DNA from: Paracoccaceae bacterium
Lineage (GTDB): Bacteria > Pseudomonadota > Alphaproteobacteria > Rhodobacterales > Rhodobacteraceae
DNA length: 10,790 bases
Direction: 5' to 3'
NCBI GenBank assembly: GCA_007131945.1
Contig: SLPP01000231.1
Coordinates: 1 to 10,790, forward strand
In this document: piece after piece, positions 706 through 10,238 of the stretch
Numbering within the stretch: the stretch's first letter is position 1
Layout: each line of letters begins with the position of its first letter
The notes under the pieces: generated by a model
Databases searched by the model: none
What the model was told of the DNA's origin: nothing
What the model saw: only the letters and a program-made list of their open reading frames with translations
Made by a program: the position numbers and the translations under genes

Positions 706-3700
706 ATGCCGGACGGTGAAATCCGCCTGATGGTGAAAGGCGCGGCGCTGGGGTCGCGCTTCGCACTGGGTTCGGGACGGTCGGCGCTTCGCGGGCAGGC
801 CGAGCCGCTCTTCGAAAGCATCGGCGACCGGCGGCTGGGCGCGGCTCCGGACGGCGACACTTGGCAGCTTCTGCGCTTCGGGGCCGAGACGGCCCCGTCG
901 CCCTGGGACCTCTGCCACGCGATCCTGCGCGGCGGCATGGGCTTCGCCGCGGTCCCCGGCGCGCAATTCGCCGAACCCGATCTCGAGCAGCGTTGGGCCT
1001 TCGCCGACGAGGCGGTCGAGGCGATGCGGCTGGCCGAATCCTGCCCGCCGACCGGTGCGCCGCAGAACCCGAGATTCCCCATCGGCCCGCAATCGGGCGC
1101 GCATGCGATGTGGCATGCCGGCCCCGACCACGGCCAGTTCGCGCAGATCGGCGGCATCTTCGATCCCGAGCGCGGGCCGCGCGTGCGCATCGCGCAACTC
1201 GATACCGGCTTCGATCCGCATCACCAGACGCTGCCGGCGCGGCTGCGTCACGACCTGCAGCGCAGTTTCGTCCGCGGCGAGCGGCCGGATGACGCGACCG
1301 ACCGCGCCGGCGGCTTGATCAACAAGGCGCCGGGGCACGGCACCGGGACGATGGGCATCCTCGCCGGGCGCACGACCGGCGCCGCGCCCTGGGCCGAGGT
1401 GATCCCGCTCCGCGTCGCCAACGCGGTCGTTCTCTTCGCCAACAGCGCCATCGCCCGCGCGCTCGACTACGTTCACGGGCTGTGCAAGGACCCGCAGACC
1501 TTCGTCCATGTCGTGACGATGAGCATGGGCGGACTCGCCTCGCGCGCCTGGGCCGAAGCGGTCAACGCACTCTATGACCGCGGCGTGACGGTGGTCAGCG
1601 CGGCGGGCAACAACTACGGCAACCTGCCGACCCGCTTCCTGGTGTTTCCGGCGCGCTTCAACCGCGTGACGGCGGCCTGCGGAGTGATGGCGGATCTGAC
1701 GCCCTATGCCGATCTCGGGCTGACGCGGATGGCGGGCAATTATGGCCCGGCCTCAGCGATGCGCACCGCCGTCGCCGCCTCGACACCGAACATGCCCTGG
1801 CCGCGGATGGGCTGCGCCGGGATCGTCGACAGCGACGGCGCCGGCACCTCGGCGGCGACGCCGCAGGTCGCCGCGGCCGCGGCGCTCTGGATCGCGCGGC
1901 ATCACGACGCCTGGGAGGCCTATCCCGAGGGCTGGATGCGGGTCGAGGCGGTACGCCACGCGCTTTTCTCGACCGCGGTGCCGGGGCGGGACGCGCAGGA
2001 GCGCGAGCGGCTCGGCTACGGCCGGTTGCGGGCGGCCGCGGCCCTGACCGTCGGCCAGCCCGCCGAGGCCGGCATCCTGACCCGCGAAGCCCCCGACTCC
2101 ACCCGGTTCGGCGCCTTCCGCATGCTTCTCGGCCTCGGTGCCGCCGGACGCGAGCCCGGCGAGGCCGAGATGCTGGAACTGGAGGCGCTGCAACTGTCGC
2201 AATCGGCCGAGATCGAGGCGCTGCTACCCGAGGGACCCGATGTCGCGCCGGACGACCCCGCCGAGCTCGCCCGCCTGCGCGAGGCGCTTGCCGATGCGCC
2301 CGGCGCGTCGCAGGCGCTGAGGGCGGCGCTGGGGCGGGCCGCCGACCGGCCGGTCGGTTCCGCCGCCGCGCTTGCGCTGCCGGGCGCGGACGCGATCCGC
2401 CGTCGGCAGCTTGAACACGCGCTCGACCCGCCGCTCGATGCACCGCCGCGACGGCGTCTGCAGGCCTTCGCCTTCGACCCGTCGATGGGCGCCGAACTGA
2501 CAACGCTCGGCCTGAACCATGCCGTACTGTCGATCCCCTGGGAGAAGCTCGAACCCGGACCCGTCGGCCGCTATCTCGAGGTGATCGACATCGACCCTCC
2601 CAGCCGGCTGGCCTATGCCCCGTTAGATCTGGACGCGCCCGCGGCGCTGGCTGGCGACGGGCTGGCGCCGTCCGAATCCGATCCGCGCTTTCACCAGCAG
2701 ATGGTCTATGCCGTCGCCATGCGCACGATCGAGGCCTTCGAGGAGGCGCTGGGGCGCGCCGCGCTCTGGGCGCCGCATGTTTCGCGCGACGCGCAGGGGA
2801 ACGAGCGGGTCGAATTCGTCGAGAAATTGCGTATCCACCCGCATGCCCTGCGCGAGGCCAATGCGTATTACAGCCCCGACCGGCAGGCGCTGCTCTTCGG
2901 CTATTTCGAATCGACCGGGGCGCGGGCGGGCGAGCTGGTCTTCACCTGCCTCTCGCACGACATCATCGCCCACGAGGTGACACACGCGCTGCTCGACGGG
3001 CTGCACCGGCGCATGCGCGAGCCGACCAATCCCGACGTGCTGGCCTTCCACGAGGCCTTTGCCGACGCGGTGGCGCTGTTTCAGCATTTCAGCCTGCCCG
3101 AGGCGCTGCGCGCCGAGATCGCGCGCACCCGCGGCGATCTCGGGCAGGAGGGGCTCCTGGGCGCACTGGCGCAGCAGTTCGGCCAGGCGCTGCATGGTCA
3201 CGGCGCGCTGCGCGAGTTCCTCGGCGAGCGCGGCAAGGACGGTGTCTGGCGCCCGCGCCCGCCGCAGCTAGACGACTATGAGCAGTATCGCCGCAAGGGC
3301 CCGCACGCGCTGGGCGCGGTGCTGGTCGCGGCGCTGTTCGATGCCTTCCTGCAGATCTATCGCCGCCGTGCCCGGGCGGCAGTGCGCCTGGCGACCGGCG
3401 GGTCGGGCGTGCTGCCCGAGGGCGAGCTTGCCCCCGACCTTGTCACCCGGTTGGCCGAGGAAGCCGCGCGGACCGCGCGCCATGTCCTGCGCATGGTGAT
3501 CCGCGCGCTCGACTACTGCCCGCCGGTAGACATCACTTTCGGCGAATACCTGCGCGCGCTCATCACCGCCGACCGCGACATGGTGCCGGACGACGATATG
3601 CATTATCGCGTGGCCTTCGTCTCGGCCTTCCGTTCCCGCGGGATCCGGGCGGAGGGCGTGCGGCACGTCTCGGCCGATGCGCTGTTCTGGGAGGAACCGC

Positions 3701-4281
3701 CCGAGCAGCCCGCGGATCTGGAGGATCTGCTGGGCAGGCTATCGCTGGGTTGGACGCGCGGCGCCGAACGGCCCGAGATCGCGCGGATCTGCGACGAGAA
3801 CGTCGCCGAGGTCCAGCTTTGGCTCGACCGGCGGGCCGAGGACGGAGTGCTCGCCGGGTTCGGGCTGATGCGCGCCGGGCGGCGTGGCGAGGCCCTGCCC
3901 CTCGACGGGATCGCGGGGACGCTGACGCCGCTCACGGTGCAATCGGTGCGCCCCTGCCGCCGCGTCGGGCCGGACGGCGATACCCGCCGCGACCTGGTGG
4001 TCGAGATCACCCAGGACTGGACCGCCGACGCGGTCCCCGGCATTCGCTTCAGCGGCGGGGCGACGCTCCTGATCGATCTCGAGACCAAGAAGGTCCGCTA
4101 CTGCGTGCGCAAACGCGTCGCCAATGCCCGTCGCGTCCGCGAGCAGATCGGCTTCGCCGCCGAGGCCGGCGGGGCCGGGCTGACCGACGCGGCCTTCGGA
4201 CTGGCACGCGCGGGCGGACCCTTCGCCGTGCTCCATGCCGGGCCGGGCGTCTGGGAAGGGGGCGGCGATGGCGAAGCCTAA
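706..4281 (+). CDS. Fused S8 subtilisin-like serine protease and M4-like gluzincin metalloprotease
   Basis: A predicted dual endopeptidase of 1191 residues. No signal peptide or membrane segment is visible, so it probably acts in the cytoplasm. Residues ~1-110 resemble a prodomain ending in 'FAEPD'. Residues ~155-435 form an S8 domain with a complete active site: D166 (DTG), H211 (HGTGT), oxyanion N302 (AAGNN) and S382 (GTSAATP). Residues ~440-580 are a helical linker. Residues ~583-970 are a thermolysin-like domain with HEVTH at 756-760, third zinc ligand E783 in HEAFAD (compare NEAxSD of M4), and H867 as a possible transition-state histidine. The end, ~1000-1191, is unrecognised and contains a beta-rich 'LLIDLETKKVRYC' segment. 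The ATG at 706 is chosen over a GTG at 688 because AAGGGGG lies 8 nt upstream of it. Its 3' end overlaps the MBL gene by 14 bp. Domain calls are strong; biological role and substrate are unknown. Confidence 0.9.
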   Translation: MPDGEIRLMVKGAALGSRFALGSGRSALRGQAEPLFESIGDRRLGAAPDGDTWQLLRFGAETAPSPWDLCHAILRGGMGFAAVPGAQFAEPDLEQRWAFADEAVEAMRLAESCPPTGAPQNPRFPIGPQSGAHAMWHAGPDHGQFAQIGGIFDPERGPRVRIAQLDTGFDPHHQTLPARLRHDLQRSFVRGERPDDATDRAGGLINKAPGHGTGTMGILAGRTTGAAPWAEVIPLRVANAVVLFANSAIARALDYVHGLCKDPQTFVHVVTMSMGGLASRAWAEAVNALYDRGVTVVSAAGNNYGNLPTRFLVFPARFNRVTAACGVMADLTPYADLGLTRMAGNYGPASAMRTAVAASTPNMPWPRMGCAGIVDSDGAGTSAATPQVAAAAALWIARHHDAWEAYPEGWMRVEAVRHALFSTAVPGRDAQERERLGYGRLRAAAALTVGQPAEAGILTREAPDSTRFGAFRMLLGLGAAGREPGEAEMLELEALQLSQSAEIEALLPEGPDVAPDDPAELARLREALADAPGASQALRAALGRAADRPVGSAAALALPGADAIRRRQLEHALDPPLDAPPRRRLQAFAFDPSMGAELTTLGLNHAVLSIPWEKLEPGPVGRYLEVIDIDPPSRLAYAPLDLDAPAALAGDGLAPSESDPRFHQQMVYAVAMRTIEAFEEALGRAALWAPHVSRDAQGNERVEFVEKLRIHPHALREANAYYSPDRQALLFGYFESTGARAGELVFTCLSHDIIAHEVTHALLDGLHRRMREPTNPDVLAFHEAFADAVALFQHFSLPEALRAEIARTRGDLGQEGLLGALAQQFGQALHGHGALREFLGERGKDGVWRPRPPQLDDYEQYRRKGPHALGAVLVAALFDAFLQIYRRRARAAVRLATGGSGVLPEGELAPDLVTRLAEEAARTARHVLRMVIRALDYCPPVDITFGEYLRALITADRDMVPDDDMHYRVAFVSAFRSRGIRAEGVRHVSADALFWEEPPEQPADLEDLLGRLSLGWTRGAERPEIARICDENVAEVQLWLDRRAEDGVLAGFGLMRAGRRGEALPLDGIAGTLTPLTVQSVRPCRRVGPDGDTRRDLVVEITQDWTADAVPGIRFSGGATLLIDLETKKVRYCVRKRVANARRVREQIGFAAEAGGAGLTDAAFGLARAGGPFAVLHAGPGVWEGGGDGEA
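4256..4262 (+). promoter_or_regulatory. Ribosome binding site that decides the MBL start
   Basis: AAGGGGG, the same heptamer as in front of the protease gene, lies inside the protease coding region and 5 nt before the ATG at 4268. This favours 4268 over the in-frame ATG at 4235, which would add 11 residues and has no comparable purine-rich element. It also implies that ribosomes finishing the protease can re-initiate on the MBL gene. Confidence 0.6.
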
Positions 4282-5701
4282 GAATCCCACCACCGGGGGG
4301 AGGCGCCGTCTGGCGGCAACCGACACCGAGAGCGAGAGCAAGGCTGCAGGCAAGATCGGTGGAGCCAAGTCCGGCGGCAAGACCAGACGCAAGACGAGCG
4401 GCAAGGCGAGCGGCAAGGCGCAGGCCTTCCGGGCGCGGGTGCGGATGTATCGCCAGGGAGTGGGCGATTGCCTGCTGGTCAGCCTGCCGCGCAGCTCCGG
4501 CGACGGGCTCTTCCACATCATGATCGATTGCGGCGTGCTGCTGGGCACGCCCGATCAGAGGGGCTGGATGCAGCGCATCGTCGCCGACATCGCCGAGACG
4601 ACCGGCGGCAAGGTCGATCTTCTGGCCGTGACGCACGAGCACTGGGATCACCTCTCGGGCTTTCTCGATGCCGCCGACGAGCTGGCCGCGATCGAATTCG
4701 GCCAAGTATGGATGAGCTGGGCCGAGAACCCCGACGACGAACAGGCGCAGGCGCTGGAAGCGGCGCGCGCGCAGGCGATCCGCGCGCTGCGCCTGGCCGA
4801 GGCGCGGCTGGGGCTTGCCGGCGCGCCCGAGGCGCAACCGGTCGCCGATCTGATGTCGCTCTTCGGCAGCCGCGGCCGCTCAACCCGCGACGCGCTTGAC
4901 GCAGCGCGCCGGCTCGCCCCCGCGGGCGGGCCGCGGTATCTGGAACCCGGCGAGACGGTGCCGCTGGACGACGCCGCGGCGCGCGTCCACGTGCTGGGCC
5001 CGCCGCGCGACGAGACGCTCCTGCGCCGCTCGAACCCCCGCCGTGGCGAGGGCTACGGCTTCGCCCTCGGCTTCGCGCTCGACGAGGCGCTGGCACTTAT
5101 GGACGAGGAGGCCCCCGACGGCCCCTTCGCCGCCCGCTGGGGCATCCCGCTGGTTCTCGCCAGAAGCCAGCCCTTCTTCCGCCGCGCCATCGACTCGCCG
5201 GGACAGGAATGGCGTCGGATCGACCTGGCCTGGCTCGACGGGGCGCTTGACCTGGCGCTGCGGCTCGATCGCGACACCAACAATTCGAGCCTAGTGCTGG
5301 CCTTCGAGCTGGCCGAGGGCGACGTGCTCCTGTTCGCCGCCGATGCCCAGGTCGGCAACTGGCGGTCGTGGCAGGCGCTCGAGTTCGACGGTGGCGCAGG
5401 CCGCCTGAGCGGGCCCGACCTGCTGGCACGAACGGTGCTTTACAAGGTCGGCCATCACGGCAGCCACAATGCCACGCTGCGCGCGCAGGGACTTGAGCAG
5501 ATGACGCGGTTGAAGACCGCGCTGGTGCCGGTCGACGAGGCGGTCGCCCGCGCGCGGAACTGGACACGCATCCCGCTGCCCGAGCTGCTGGAGGCACTGG
5601 ACGCGCAGACCGAGGGGCGCGTGCTGCGCGCCGACGCGCCGGCGCCGGCGGCTGCCGCGGATATCGACGCCACCGCCCTGCGCTTCGACGTCTTCCTCTG
5701 A
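4268..5701 (+). CDS. Metallo-beta-lactamase-fold hydrolase, ComEC-like type
   Basis: A predicted soluble metal-dependent hydrolase of 477 residues. Residues 1-~55 are a lysine/glycine/serine-rich, probably disordered tail with repeated 'SGK' units. The MBL fold follows. It has an opening strand 'GVGDCLLVSL', a 'MIDCG' strand, the metal-binding motif THEHWDH at 122-128 (HxHxDH, ligands H123, H125, D127, H128), an Ala/Glu-rich helical insertion near 155-185, D359 in 'LLFAADAQ', and HHGSH at 396-400 in a 'KVGHHGSHN' context. The last two resemble the MBL domain of ComEC and related nucleases or phosphodiesterases. It lacks the ComEC membrane channel and any obvious accessory nuclease domain. The metal ligands look intact, so catalysis is likely. 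The substrate (nucleic acid, nucleotide or other phosphoester) cannot be told from sequence. The 14-bp overlap with the protease gene points to a shared pathway and fixed stoichiometry. Confidence 0.88.
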   Translation: MAKPKNPTTGGRRRLAATDTESESKAAGKIGGAKSGGKTRRKTSGKASGKAQAFRARVRMYRQGVGDCLLVSLPRSSGDGLFHIMIDCGVLLGTPDQRGWMQRIVADIAETTGGKVDLLAVTHEHWDHLSGFLDAADELAAIEFGQVWMSWAENPDDEQAQALEAARAQAIRALRLAEARLGLAGAPEAQPVADLMSLFGSRGRSTRDALDAARRLAPAGGPRYLEPGETVPLDDAAARVHVLGPPRDETLLRRSNPRRGEGYGFALGFALDEALALMDEEAPDGPFAARWGIPLVLARSQPFFRRAIDSPGQEWRRIDLAWLDGALDLALRLDRDTNNSSLVLAFELAEGDVLLFAADAQVGNWRSWQALEFDGGAGRLSGPDLLARTVLYKVGHHGSHNATLRAQGLEQMTRLKTALVPVDEAVARARNWTRIPLPELLEALDAQTEGRVLRADAPAPAAAADIDATALRFDVFL

Positions 5702-5827: not shown

Positions 5828-7051
5828 ATGGGCGCGATCGGAAGATATCTGGGACAGGCGCTGGCGGTGGTCGCGGTCGTGGCCGCCGCCGTGGTGATCT
5901 GGGCCGTCTGGTTGCCCGCATCGCATCCGCTGCTCGACCGTCTGGGGCTACTCGCCCCGCTCGAACGCGCCGGCCTGCCGATCGCGCGCGGGGCGGAGGG
6001 CAATGACGCCGGGCGACCGGGCGGCCCTGGCGGTTTCGGCGGCGGCGCCGTCGCGGTGATCGCCGGAGAGGTTGCCGAGGTGGCGCTGCGCGACCGGGTA
6101 AGCGCCATCGGCACGGGTGCGGCGCGGCGCTCGGTCGTGCTTCAACCCGAGGTTTCGGGGCGCGTGGTCGAGATCGCGGTCGAGCCGGGCGCCTGGGTGG
6201 AGGCCGGCACGACCATTGCGCGGCTCGACGACCAGGCCGAGACCATCGCCCGCGATCGCGCCGTGCTGTTGCTGGACGAGGCGCTCGATACCGCAGACCG
6301 GCTGGAGCGGCTCCGCGCCAGCGGGACCGCCACGGCCGTGCAGATCCGCGAGGCGGATCTTGCGGTACGCACCGCCGAGCTCGCCTTACGCGAGGCCGAA
6401 TTCGATCTGTCGCGCCGCGCGGTCCGGGCGCCGATCGACGGCTGGATCGGCCTGATCGACGCCGAAATCGGCGACCAGGTCGGCCCCGGAACGCAGATCG
6501 CGCGGATCGACGATCGCTCGGTCCTGCTGGTCGAGTTCCGCGTGCCCGAACGCCTGGTCGGCCGCATCGCCTCCGGCGACGGCCTGCGCGTGGCGCCGCT
6601 CGCCCGGCGCGATGCGCCGCTCGAGGGGCGGGTGCACGCCATTGACAGCCGCGTCGACGAGGCCGGCCGCAACCTGCGCATCCAGGCCGAGATCGCCAAT
6701 GACGAGGACCGCCTGCGCGCCGGCATGGCCTTCGCCATCGAGATGGAATTCGCCGGCAAGATGCATCCGGCGGTCGAGCCGCTGGCGATCCAGTGGTCTA
6801 ACGAGGGCGCCTATGTCTGGGCCGTGCGCGACGGGCGCGCGGAACGCGTCGATGTGCGCATCCTACAGCGCGCCAATGGCCGGGTGCTGGTCGCCGGCGA
6901 TCTTGCCGCGGGCGAACATGTGGTGCTCGAGGGCGTGCAGAGCCTGCGCGACGGTGCCGAGGTCGAGATGCGCGACCGCGACTCGCGTCCCGGCGACCGC
7001 AGCGAGGGCGAGGTCAGGGCGAAGGCCGGTGCCGGGCTTTCCGAGACCTGA
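5828..7051 (+). CDS. RND efflux periplasmic adaptor (membrane fusion protein, HlyD/AcrA type)
   Basis: A 407-residue adaptor that would bridge the RND pump encoded next to it and an outer-membrane channel. Residues ~8-29 form a hydrophobic anchor with no lipobox cysteine, so it is probably held by an uncleaved N-terminal helix. A Gly/Pro-rich spacer lies at ~60-73. A split lipoyl domain occupies ~106-136 ('VSGRVVEIAVEPGAWV') and ~199-228 ('RAPIDGWIGLIDAEIGDQV'). Between them is a short helical hairpin, ~139-195. A beta-barrel domain follows (~231-310), then the membrane-proximal domain. The ATG at 5828 has only a weak upstream purine stretch. Its TGA is separated from the pump's start codon by one base, so the two are clearly one operon. 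The specific export substrate is unknown. Confidence 0.9.
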   Translation: MGAIGRYLGQALAVVAVVAAAVVIWAVWLPASHPLLDRLGLLAPLERAGLPIARGAEGNDAGRPGGPGGFGGGAVAVIAGEVAEVALRDRVSAIGTGAARRSVVLQPEVSGRVVEIAVEPGAWVEAGTTIARLDDQAETIARDRAVLLLDEALDTADRLERLRASGTATAVQIREADLAVRTAELALREAEFDLSRRAVRAPIDGWIGLIDAEIGDQVGPGTQIARIDDRSVLLVEFRVPERLVGRIASGDGLRVAPLARRDAPLEGRVHAIDSRVDEAGRNLRIQAEIANDEDRLRAGMAFAIEMEFAGKMHPAVEPLAIQWSNEGAYVWAVRDGRAERVDVRILQRANGRVLVAGDLAAGEHVVLEGVQSLRDGAEVEMRDRDSRPGDRSEGEVRAKAGAGLSET

Positions 7052-7052
7052 G

Positions 7053-10000
7053 ATGCGCATGAGCGACTCCGCCCGCACCGATCTGCCCGGAGATGAACGT
7101 CCCGAGGAGGCGCAACGCTCGGGCACCGCGCTGTTCATCCGCCGGCCGATCCTCGCCTTCGTGCTCAACGCGCTCATCGTGATTGCCGGCATCGCCGGGC
7201 TGATCGGCGCCGAGGTGCGCGAACTGCCCGATATCGACCGCCCGGTCGTCACCATCACCACGACCTTCTCCAGCGCCAGCCCCGAGACCATCGACCGGGA
7301 GGTCACGAGCGTGGTCGAAGGCGCGGTCGGGCGTGTTGCCGGCGTGCGGGCGATCTCGTCGGAATCGCGCTTCGGGCGCAGCCGGGTGACGGTCGAATTC
7401 GGCGACCGTACGGATATCGACGTCGCCGCCACCGACATCCGCGACGCGATCGGCCGGATCCGCAACCAGTTGCCCTCGGGCATCGACGAGCCGCGTATCA
7501 TCAAGGCCGACGCCAACGCGGAGGTGATGATGCGCATCGGTGTCACCTCCTCGGCCCGCTCGGTGCAGGATCTGACACGTCTGGTCGAGGAGATGGTCGA
7601 GGATCGGCTGATCTCGGTCCCCGGTGTCGCCGACCTGCAGGTCTTCGGCCGGCGCGAGGCGGTGTTCCGCGTCGATATCGACATGCTGGAACTGGCCGCG
7701 CGCGGGCTCAGCCTGGCCGATCTGCGGGGCGCGCTGCGCGACGTTGCCTTCGACGTGCCGGCCGGCGCACTGCAGACACGGGCGCAGTCGATTTTCGTGC
7801 GCACCACCGCCCCGGTGCGGACACCCGAGGATTTCGAGGCGCTGATCCTGCGCGGCGAGACGCGGCTCGGTGATGTCGCGAATGTCTCGCTGGGTCCGGC
7901 GCCGGGCGAGTCGATCCTGCGGGCGAACGGGCAGTCGGGCATTGGCCTCGGCATCATCCGGCAGGCGACATCGAACACGCTCGACATCTCGGCCGCGGTG
8001 ACCGGTATCGTCGAGGAATTGCGGGAGATCCTGCCCGGGGACGTGTCGATCTTCGTCACCTATGACGAGGCGACCTTCGTGCGCGGGGCGATCACCGAGG
8101 TGGTCAAGACGCTGGGCCTGGCGCTGCTGATCGTGGTCGGGATCATCTTCCTGTTCCTGCGCGACGCGCGCGCGACGCTGATCCCGGCGATCACCCTGCC
8201 GGTGGCGCTGATCGGCACGCTGGCGGCGATCTGGATCGTCGGCTTTTCGGTCAACGTGCTGACGCTCCTGGCGCTGGTGCTGGCCACCGGCATGGTGGTC
8301 GACGACGCCATCGTCGTGCTTGAGAACATCGTCCGCCGCCGGGCCGAGGGAATGGGGCCGCGCGCGGCGGCGGTCCTTGGCACGCGGCAGGTCTTCTTCG
8401 CCGTCGTCACCACCACCGCGACACTGGCCGCGGTCTTCGTGCCGCTGTCGTTCCTGCCCGGCCAGACCGGCGGGCTTTTCCGCGAGTTCGGCTTCACGCT
8501 GGCGATGGCGGTGCTCCTGTCCTCGATCGTCGCGCTGACGCTCTGCCCGGTGCTGGCGAGCCGCCTGCTGCGCGCCGCGCCCGCCGGCGAGACCCGGCGC
8601 GGGCCGATGATCTGGCTCGGCGACCGGCTCGCCGCGCTCTACGCCTGGACGCTTCGCGGCGCGCTGAAGGCGCCCTTGGTGGTGATCGCGGCGGCGGCGC
8701 TCTTCGGTCTCACGGCGCTTCTGCTGATGGGCCAGATCCGCCAGGAGCTGACCCCGTCGGAGGACCGCGCCATCGCCCTTCTGAGCGTGCGCGCGCCGCA
8801 GGGCGTCTCGCTCGATTACCTCAACGGCAAGATGCTCGAGATCGAGGCGCTGGTGCAGCCGTTGCGCGCTTCGGGCGAGGTGACGAACGTTTTCGCCATC
8901 ACCGGCACCGGCGGGCGCGACAACCGTGGCTTCATGGTCATGACCCTGGCCGACTGGAACGCGCGCACGCGCAGCCAGCAGGAGATCGTGGCGGAAATCA
9001 ACGCCGTCCTGCGGCAGGTGATCGGCGTGCAGGCCTTCGCCATCCAGCCCAACTCGCTGCGCATCCGCGGTGCCGGTCAGGGGCTGCGTTTCGCCATCGT
9101 CGGCACGAACTACGACGAACTCGCCAGTCAGGCCGAGGCGCTGGTCGAGCGGATGCGGGAAGACCCCGGACTCGGCCAGGTGCGGCTGTCGTTCGAGACC
9201 ACGCAGCCGCAGCTCTTCATCGAGGTCGATCGCCGCCGCGCGGCCGATCTGGGCTTGGCGATCGACGGGCTGGGCGAGGCGCTGCAGGCGGTGCTCGACG
9301 GGCGCACGGTGGGCACGGTCTTCATCGACGACCGCAGCTTCGACATCAAGATGCTCTCGACCGCCACGCCGGTTCGTGACCCGACCGATCTAGAAAACGT
9401 CTTCGTGCAGAGCTCGAACGGCCAGCTGCAGCCGCTCGCGTCCTTCGTCACGCTCGAGGAACGCGCGGTCGCCCCGGAACTCACGCGCGAGGCACAGATG
9501 CGCGCGGTCGAGATCACCGCGGGGCTCACGCCGACGATGGCGCTGGGCGACGCGCTGGCCGAGGTCAACCGGCTCGCCGCCGAAGTCCTGCCGGCCGAGT
9601 CCCGCGTCGTGCCGCTGGCCGAGGCAGCGACGCTCGACGAGACCTCGAGCGGCATCCTGATCGTCTTCGGCTTCGCGCTGCTGGTGGTGTTCCTGGTGCT
9701 CTCGGCGCAGTTCGAAAGCTTCGTCTCGGCCGTCGTCGTCATGGCGACGGTGCCGCTGGGGCTTGCCTGCGCGATCTTCGCGCTTCTGCTGACCGGGGGC
9801 AGCCTGAATGTCTACTCGCAGATAGGTCTGGTCCTGCTGGTCGGCATCATGGCCAAGAACGGGATCCTCATCGTCGAATTCGCCAACCAGCTGCGCGACC
9901 GCGGCGCCTCGGTCGCCGAGGCGGCCTTCGAGGCGGCGACGATCCGGCTGCGGCCGGTGATGATGACCATGGCCTCGACCGTGCTCGGCGGCGTGCCGCT

Positions 10001-10238
10001 GGTTCTGGCCTTCGGCGCCGGCGCCGAGGCGCGCGAGGCGCTCGGCTGGGTGATTGTTGGCGGGCTGGGGCTGGCGGCGCTGCTGACGCTCTATCTGACA
10101 CCCGTCGCCTATCTGCTGCTCGCGCGCTTCACCACGCCCAAGGCCGCCGAGGCGGCACGCCTCGCGGGTGAGCTCGACGCTGCCACCGGCGCGGGCCGCC
10201 GATCGCCCGCTGGCGCCGCGGTGACCCCGGCGGAGTGA
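7053..10238 (+). CDS. RND efflux inner-membrane permease (AcrB/HAE1-like)
   Basis: A proton-driven drug or lipophile exporter of 1061 residues, the usual length for the HAE1/AcrB group. TM1 is at ~33-53, followed by a first porter domain with 'ELPDIDRPVVTITT'. TM2-6 are at ~350-505, TM7 at ~540-562, a second porter domain runs to ~860, and TM8-12 are at ~867-1030. The proton-relay residues are present: D417-D418 in 'GMVVDDAIVVLENI' (TM4) and K935 in 'GIMAKNGILIVEFANQL' (TM10). Nothing suggests truncation or inactivation. The start is taken at 7053. A second ATG at 7059 is equally possible, and neither has a strong Shine-Dalgarno sequence. No outer-membrane factor gene follows in the window, so the pump presumably borrows one encoded elsewhere. 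The substrate cannot be predicted. Confidence 0.93.
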   Translation: MRMSDSARTDLPGDERPEEAQRSGTALFIRRPILAFVLNALIVIAGIAGLIGAEVRELPDIDRPVVTITTTFSSASPETIDREVTSVVEGAVGRVAGVRAISSESRFGRSRVTVEFGDRTDIDVAATDIRDAIGRIRNQLPSGIDEPRIIKADANAEVMMRIGVTSSARSVQDLTRLVEEMVEDRLISVPGVADLQVFGRREAVFRVDIDMLELAARGLSLADLRGALRDVAFDVPAGALQTRAQSIFVRTTAPVRTPEDFEALILRGETRLGDVANVSLGPAPGESILRANGQSGIGLGIIRQATSNTLDISAAVTGIVEELREILPGDVSIFVTYDEATFVRGAITEVVKTLGLALLIVVGIIFLFLRDARATLIPAITLPVALIGTLAAIWIVGFSVNVLTLLALVLATGMVVDDAIVVLENIVRRRAEGMGPRAAAVLGTRQVFFAVVTTTATLAAVFVPLSFLPGQTGGLFREFGFTLAMAVLLSSIVALTLCPVLASRLLRAAPAGETRRGPMIWLGDRLAALYAWTLRGALKAPLVVIAAAALFGLTALLLMGQIRQELTPSEDRAIALLSVRAPQGVSLDYLNGKMLEIEALVQPLRASGEVTNVFAITGTGGRDNRGFMVMTLADWNARTRSQQEIVAEINAVLRQVIGVQAFAIQPNSLRIRGAGQGLRFAIVGTNYDELASQAEALVERMREDPGLGQVRLSFETTQPQLFIEVDRRRAADLGLAIDGLGEALQAVLDGRTVGTVFIDDRSFDIKMLSTATPVRDPTDLENVFVQSSNGQLQPLASFVTLEERAVAPELTREAQMRAVEITAGLTPTMALGDALAEVNRLAAEVLPAESRVVPLAEAATLDETSSGILIVFGFALLVVFLVLSAQFESFVSAVVVMATVPLGLACAIFALLLTGGSLNVYSQIGLVLLVGIMAKNGILIVEFANQLRDRGASVAEAAFEAATIRLRPVMMTMASTVLGGVPLVLAFGAGAEAREALGWVIVGGLGLAALLTLYLTPVAYLLLARFTTPKAAEAARLAGELDAATGAGRRSPAGAAVTPAE

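Follow-up and report, generated by a model that had tools for sequence, protein, structure and literature searches.

The Gene Pair

The window analyzed here is the whole 10,790-nucleotide stretch of contig SLPP01000231.1 (assembly GCA_007131945.1), from a Paracoccaceae bacterium. Its plus strand, on which all the features below lie, carries two genes, here called A and B, that on balance we are inclined to read as a protease-gated nuclease pair with a new class of protease. Gene A (706..4281; ATG at 706, stop codon ending at 4281) encodes a 1191-residue dual protease, in which an S8 subtilisin domain is fused to an M4-like zincin domain. Gene B (4268..5701; ATG at 4268, stop codon ending at 5701) encodes a 477-residue metallo-β-lactamase (MBL) hydrolase of the ComEC/Avs1a type. 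An earlier note, made from the letters of the window, had placed the two genes in a 14 bp overlap, and the open frames agree. Selection on both is purifying: in the comparison of the window with Pararhodobacter locus L006, the ratio of nonsynonymous to synonymous substitution rates (dN/dS) is ~0.17 for A (0.125/0.753) and 0.17 for B (0.178/1.045).

Active Sites of Proteins A and B

The S8 domain spans residues 131–448 of A (1096..2049) and is recognized by structure search and by Pfam (Peptidase_S8, residues 160–439, E 6.7e-20). Its catalytic residues are D166 (1201..1203), H211 (1336..1338), and S382 (1849..1851). The M4-like domain, residues ~580–990 (2443..3675), contains the zinc-binding motif HEVTH (residues 756–760; 2971..2985), a likely third zinc ligand, E783 (3052..3054), and H867 (3304..3306), which probably corresponds to the catalytic His of M4 enzymes. 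In the window protein and its 80 relatives, the S8 triad, H756, E757, H760, and E783 are identical in 81/81, and H867 is identical in 80/81. Thus, one protein does carry two protease active sites (D166/H211/S382 and HEVTH plus E783), as the earlier note had claimed.

The motif arrangement in the second domain, i.e., HExxH, the Glu in HEAFAD, and a conserved His, is presumably that of an M4/M36-type gluzincin. Sequence matches back the M4 label of A less strongly than its S8 label. Pfam Peptidase_M4 gives the window domain 12 bits (E 0.3), under the cut-off of 22.4, and a profile search of Protein Data Bank sequences with the M4-like domain places M4 enzymes on top, yet at E values of 0.2–0.7. 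A structure search with the whole of A returned subtilisin-type chains only among the best 50 matches listed, all filled by the S8 domain.

The N-terminal region of A (residues 1–130; 706..1095) likely includes a pro-domain because some structural alignments to unprocessed pro-Tk-subtilisin start at residue 4 (e.g., 2z2z, 349 residues aligned, model range 4–452). By a crude check, no hydrophobic stretch is present at the N-terminus; the top 19-residue hydropathy is 1.65, within the S8 domain. The C-terminal region (residues 991–1177; 3676..4236) is common to most aligned stand-alone M4-like proteins.

Protein B has an HxHxDH metal-binding motif (residues 123–128; 4634..4651), the metal ligand D359 (5342..5344), and an HHGS motif (residues 396–399; 5453..5464). 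The metal ligands that the earlier note had called intact are kept: H123, H125, D127, and H128 in 63/64 B proteins, and D359, H396, and H397 in 61/64. The 64 rows include the partial proteins of L005, L037, L067, and L079, apparently the source of the ligand gaps. Profile alignment finds B homologous to Avs1a across most of its length (342–367 columns); that is, judged from sequence, the architecture of B is of the ComEC/Avs1a type over most of its length. About 170 residues have no ComEC counterpart, and one internal loop, residues 266–290, has a low predicted local distance difference test (pLDDT) score. The ComEC of the window's own genome matched model positions 77–349 only, outside the MBL part. 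Alignment A1 holds 37 of the 81 A proteins and alignment A2 holds 36 of the 64 B proteins; the B frames of L014 and L076, over-extended by the gene caller, are outside A2 but inside the 64-row count.

B is broken into two frames or two annotated genes in L117, L145, and L079, all with an open frame for A. These cases include a one-contig genome and a complete plasmid, and B of L037 may be interrupted too.

Constancy of the Pair and Its Conserved Core

Relatives of A were gathered with six short A patterns run against 84,980 species genomes, which gave 477 stretches, the best 80 of which were kept. B lies downstream of A, adjoining it on the same strand, in 63 of the 80 loci, and is the only widely recurring neighbor of A. 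The other families that recur widely beside A form a syntenic block of Mesorhizobium-type genomes. The homologues are thus consistently adjacent, not rarely so.

The full A profile has matches at E 0.001 in 68 of 398 Pseudomonadota genomes, mostly subtilases of other kinds. Full-length A is found in three of the 398, G000 (the window's own genome), G055, and G171; in some others, the matching proteins correspond to just one half of A, either the second or the first. The M4-like profile matches in eight of these genomes at E 1e-10 and B in six. Every genome with B also has an M4-like match, the two genes lying side by side (in G217, B is split over two frames), and the two of the eight without B, G294 and G343, have the weakest M4-like matches.

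M4-like proteins that stand alone, with a B-type gene next door, are encoded on both plasmids and chromosomes. Plasmid records H1–H25 and H27 (26 records, some near-duplicates) have both an M4-like and a B match. The distance between the two is at most ~0.4 kb in 20 of the 26, 0.76–0.85 kb in four (H22–H25), and 1.66 kb in two (H20 and H21); in H22 and H25, they are annotated as neighboring genes. Among the best 30 of 32 matches listed, H26 and H28–H30 have no B match, although in H28 the protein encoded immediately downstream is a divergent one with an HxHxDH motif.

A tree of 101 M4-like domains was built without L122, L138, L145, and L146 (alignment A3 is without L122). On it, the M4-only label takes six changes, at least two of them forced by supported branches; under midpoint rooting, and with long-branch caveats, the label includes the longest, deepest branches. 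From the M4-only pairs in genomes and plasmids and from this tree, the conserved core looks like the M4-like protease plus B, with S8 an optional part gained or lost more than once. The self-contained two-gene module of the earlier note is thus real and widespread as a pair, but the unit is divisible: S8 is missing from many M4-like plus B relatives, and some S8-M4 lineages are without B.

Relatives of the S8 half are found in proteins of ~940–970 residues (L120, L121, L123, and L124), some of them near genes that look TIR-like or MoxR/vWA-like by eye.

Candidate Cut Sites in B

According to the main text of Tuck et al. (Science 2025; PMC12799240), MBL nucleases of this kind are proenzymes in which a partner protease cuts insertions to release the DNase. 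The cuts were mapped at isoleucine in HamM (I118 and I218) and EpiAvs1a (I134); canu has glycines that are conserved (PMC12799240).

Two candidate sites are proposed in B, as follows. The low-confidence loop of residues 266–290 (5063..5137; pLDDT <50) differs in length among relatives. In the B partners of S8-containing A proteins (the S8 set), the only loop positions conserved at 90% or above are P286 (38/39) and F287 (39/39), together at 5123..5128. In the B partners of S8-less proteins (the M4-only set), Pro is present at the loop site in 15/15, followed by Phe in 13/15 and Leu in 2/15. The second candidate is position 198 (4859..4861), in the first inserted region. The residue here is Leu in the window and Phe in 61/64 B proteins; in the two sets, it is Phe in 38/39 (S8) and 13/15 (M4-only). 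The comparison of the two sets omits L117, L134, L138, L145, and L146, which were split, unannotated, or not extracted. In a profile alignment of low confidence, the P286-F287 region and position 198 align to Ile220 and Ile141 of the Avs1a-like protein of L165, Ile141 being residue 134 if translation begins at the first Met of the frame. The alignment with these isoleucines is only suggestive of cut sites.

Which domain of A would cut B can be argued from the same residues. Pro-Phe is a classical subtilisin P2-P1 pair, and M4-type enzymes have a hydrophobic P1' preference. Activation of B by S8 instead of by the M4-like domain would agree with the near-invariance of Pro-Phe in the loop of the S8 set (38–39 of 39) and with the complete triad of all 81 A proteins, but Pro-Phe or Pro-Leu is found in every one of the 15 B relatives with an S8-less partner, and we consider this reading doubtful. 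Because Pro-Phe/Leu persists where S8 is absent, the M4-like enzyme rather than S8 is pointed to as the cutter, and a pure S8 cutter of B is disfavored.

Genomic Neighborhoods

The M4-only plasmid pairs have defense-type genes beside them in 6 of the 13 annotated regions fetched. Genes of the cyclic-oligonucleotide-based antiphage signaling system (CBASS) adjoin L126 and L127, ThiF genes adjoin L131, L135, and L137, and DUF1837 plus DEAD-helicase genes, which we take to be Hachiman-like, adjoin L127 and L141. For nine of the 13 regions, each with one control, such genes were found in 5/9 near regions versus 0/9 far stretches of the same plasmids (p ~0.015, one-sided, by hand), three of the five positives being close relatives. 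This count excludes toxin–antitoxin genes (L129 and control L174), a SWIM-protein/helicase pair (control L174), and L128, the controls of which were without a PADLOC scan. Those defense names were found in 0/4 annotated S8-M4 plasmid regions (L130, L143, L144, and L145); SIR2 genes are next door in L130 (pCMU01).

PADLOC and Pfam searches on 98 neighbors, mostly from chromosomal S8-M4 loci, gave no strong defense signal. PADLOC returned single matches, such as JetA and HEC-06, and four to mad2 (among the 25 of 45 families listed). The 98 were hand-picked from 171 neighbors within two genes of 64 loci; long proteins, most already identified glucose–methanol–choline (GMC) oxidoreductase, cytochrome, and peroxidase genes, and 15 Mesorhizobium-type loci had been dropped. 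Island evidence is moderate for the plasmid M4-only pairs and weak for the S8-M4 loci, and the enrichment near defense genes raised by the earlier note is visible at the former (5/9 versus 0/9, by annotated names) but is weak at the chromosomal S8-M4 loci.

In the window, the module is followed by an HlyD-type adaptor gene (5828–7051) and an AcrB-type resistance–nodulation–division (RND) pump gene (~6999–10238). Their order is shared with Pararhodobacter L006, at 74% and 85% identity. No convincing gene was seen in positions 1–705, between the contig end and A; of this segment, only the last ~80 bases resemble L006 among the fetched loci. No defense gene is visible in the window, in which the contig ends 705 bases upstream of A.

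Upstream of the module, an animal-type haem peroxidase is found in L013 (3778–9963), L014, and L051, and an old yellow enzyme-type flavoenzyme with RoxA-like cytochromes in L013 (3778–9963), L014, and L076. These genes are reminiscent, we presume, of lipid-oxidation pathways. A role as contractile injection cargo was considered when sheath and tube genes were suspected from gene sizes; the sequences are those of haem cytochromes and GMC oxidoreductases (the latter by eye). A phage origin was also rejected: viral contigs yielded a single partial relative, a fecal phage scaffold of unverified status yielded a single M4-like match that covers 35% of the query, and the other seven phage records match the S8 part only.

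Proposed Mechanism and Alternatives

We propose that B is made as a DNase that would be kept inactive by the inserted segments near its active site. A predicted signal would trigger A, the M4-like protease of which would cut B within these segments. The cut B would then degrade DNA, and the cell would be stopped or killed, likely as a defense against phage or other mobile DNA. Of the purposes considered, a putative role in defense is the most likely. The fused S8 domain may be an extra layer, predicted either to activate the M4-like domain or to make one of the cuts. A fuller version, which we hold only tentatively, is a two-protease cascade in one polypeptide. In it, the S8 zymogen would sense the signal or be triggered first and activate the M4-like domain, which would cut the ComEC-type pro-nuclease at Phe sites, so that sensor and activator would be combined in one protein with no NTPase.

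Several points weigh against a protease-gated pair with a role in defense. Hydrophobic residues tend to align together anyway. The loop alignment is of low confidence, and Ile220 of L165 has no conserved counterpart in the five other Avs1a-like sequences; the structure prediction confidently puts position 198 within a helix, and the window carries Leu there. The plasmid defense gene names were chosen after the near regions were seen. The neighbors of chromosomal S8-M4 loci are mostly ordinary, and Mesorhizobium and Paracoccaceae have fixed neighbors, which is atypical for defense. In L057 and ~15 other Mesorhizobium-type loci, these are a CRP-like regulator, a cyclase-like protein, and a 1,411-residue P450/Dyp-peroxidase fusion; such constancy in Mesorhizobium and in the window lineage is more in keeping with stable inheritance than with a quick turnover of islands. 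Finally, 17 of the 80 A loci are without a B match. In three of these (L048, L068, and L071), the contig ends at or just after A, so that B is apparently absent in 14/77. As 12 of the 14 share one clade (Shimodaira–Hasegawa-like approximate likelihood ratio support of 99), B was probably lost or never gained in that clade and is probably no chance neighbor elsewhere.

The B-less S8-M4 clade comprises L032, L038, L041, L042, L044, L046, L050, L055, L066, L072, L080, and L082. Several of these adjoin GMC oxidoreductase, lipase-like, or haem cytochrome genes, and a change of effector is possible.

An alternative that we judge unlikely is a stress-response or housekeeping proteolysis module for peptide or protein maturation, with no defense role, in which B would hydrolyze a small molecule or RNA. 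The fixed neighbors of the 15–16 Mesorhizobium-type loci, the HlyD/RND genes common to the window and Pararhodobacter, and the few PADLOC matches among the 98 neighbors would all suit it. It accounts less well for the ComEC/Avs1a-type build of B, for the rarity of full-length A (3/398 genomes), for the mixing of phyla in the tree, and for the plasmid M4-only copies among defense genes.

Quite improbable is that A and B are the effector part of a larger Lamassu- or patatin-type system, with a sensor elsewhere, past the contig end, or lost in the window: in Hymenobacter L128, an ATPase matching LmuB (E 3.9e-24) is encoded directly upstream of M4-like plus B, an AAA ATPase gene occupies the corresponding position in L133, and patatin genes occur near M4-like plus B and S8-M4 loci, but, the Mesorhizobium block aside, the 80 S8-M4 loci share no recurrent third gene, and a phmmer query with the L128 ATPase, a weak test, found no relative in them at E 1e-4.

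The patatin-like phospholipase genes are near M4-like plus B in L126, L127, L131, L141, L139, L140, and L119 and near S8-M4 in L032, L084, and L054, and patatin is a possible third component of the module. L119 (G220) is a dense island. There, M4-like plus B and patatin adjoin another MBL, which is Avs1a-like and is accompanied by a caspase-like gene (by eye, a canu-like arrangement), as well as a HipA-like gene and, by eye, a large NTPase. In L168 (G030), the gene after an Avs1a-like MBL looks patatin-like by eye, which may be a further nuclease–lipase pairing.

If the protease-gated reading is correct, the proteolytic unlocking of ComEC-type nucleases would reach past trypsin- and caspase-like partners to the zincin/subtilisin class, with Phe predicted at the cut sites instead of Ile or Gly. 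The split forms (M4 alone or S8-M4, with or without B, with patatin or an SMC-like ATPase) would be a natural series for the gain of regulators. A testable function would be assigned to proteins that now bear no annotation beyond S8 peptidase, peptidase M4, MBL hydrolase, or hypothetical.

Comparison with Known Systems

A has a subtilase domain with the Asp/His/Ser triad and so belongs with the S8 peptidases. It differs from the S8 subtilases (mycosins, PatA, and subtilisins) in that its S8 domain is fused to an M4-like zincin and its N-terminus is not hydrophobic. With thermolysin family M4 it shares HExxH, the Glu, and the conserved His (81, 81, and 80 of 81), but it lies below the Pfam M4 cut-off and appears to be a distinct family.

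Like Lamassu, the pair has an MBL component, B matching the MBL-type LmuA model over residues 57–150 (E 3.6e-11), and the AAA ATPase gene that immediately precedes M4-like plus B in the two M4-only Hymenobacter loci, LmuB-like in the case of L128, adds to the likeness. No LmuB ATPase was seen in the window frames, in which the contig ends upstream of A, nor, by the single phmmer query, among the called genes of the 80 loci; a Lamassu reading is thus disfavored for the window.

The earlier note had compared the pair to type I of AVAST (antiviral ATPases/NTPases of the STAND superfamily). The comparison holds insofar as an MBL gene lies beside a protease gene and B is an Avs1a homologue over most of its length. 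By the features tested, the pair is not AVAST type I: Pfam finds S8 in 37/37 A proteins and no trypsin family, and B reaches 22.7 bits versus the Avs1a cut-off of 420. No STAND NTPase was seen in the window frames (to 705 bases 5′ of A), and no third gene recurs in the 80 loci, the neighbors of which were not scanned for STAND as such.

The closest likeness is to the protease-gated MBL nuclease pairs: Hachiman HamM, Avs1a, some Lamassu and defense-associated reverse transcriptase (DRT) systems, and canu CanC. All have a ComEC-type MBL with inserted segments beside a protease gene, the protease being trypsin-like in Hachiman and AVAST and caspase-like in canu (PMC12799240). The A-B pair shares the Avs1a/ComEC-homologous MBL with intact ligands and the consistently adjacent protease gene (63/80 loci; 6/6 B genomes), and its genes are ordered as in canu, with the protease upstream of the nuclease. 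Fusion to a HamA, STAND, or LmuA part was not seen. By titles and the starts of abstracts, the only relevant reports among the matches listed are PMC12799240 and a Lamassu review (PMC10586767). In the former, the authors mention additional homologues of the nuclease that are found together with proteases from various other families, which are not named; the words subtilisin, metalloprotease, zincin, peptidase, and patatin are absent from its main text. The module that the earlier note had thought may be undescribed would thus belong to a class of gating mechanism published in November 2025 (PMC12799240). What would be new here is the class of protease, S8 plus M4-like rather than trypsin- or caspase-like, and the optional second protease.

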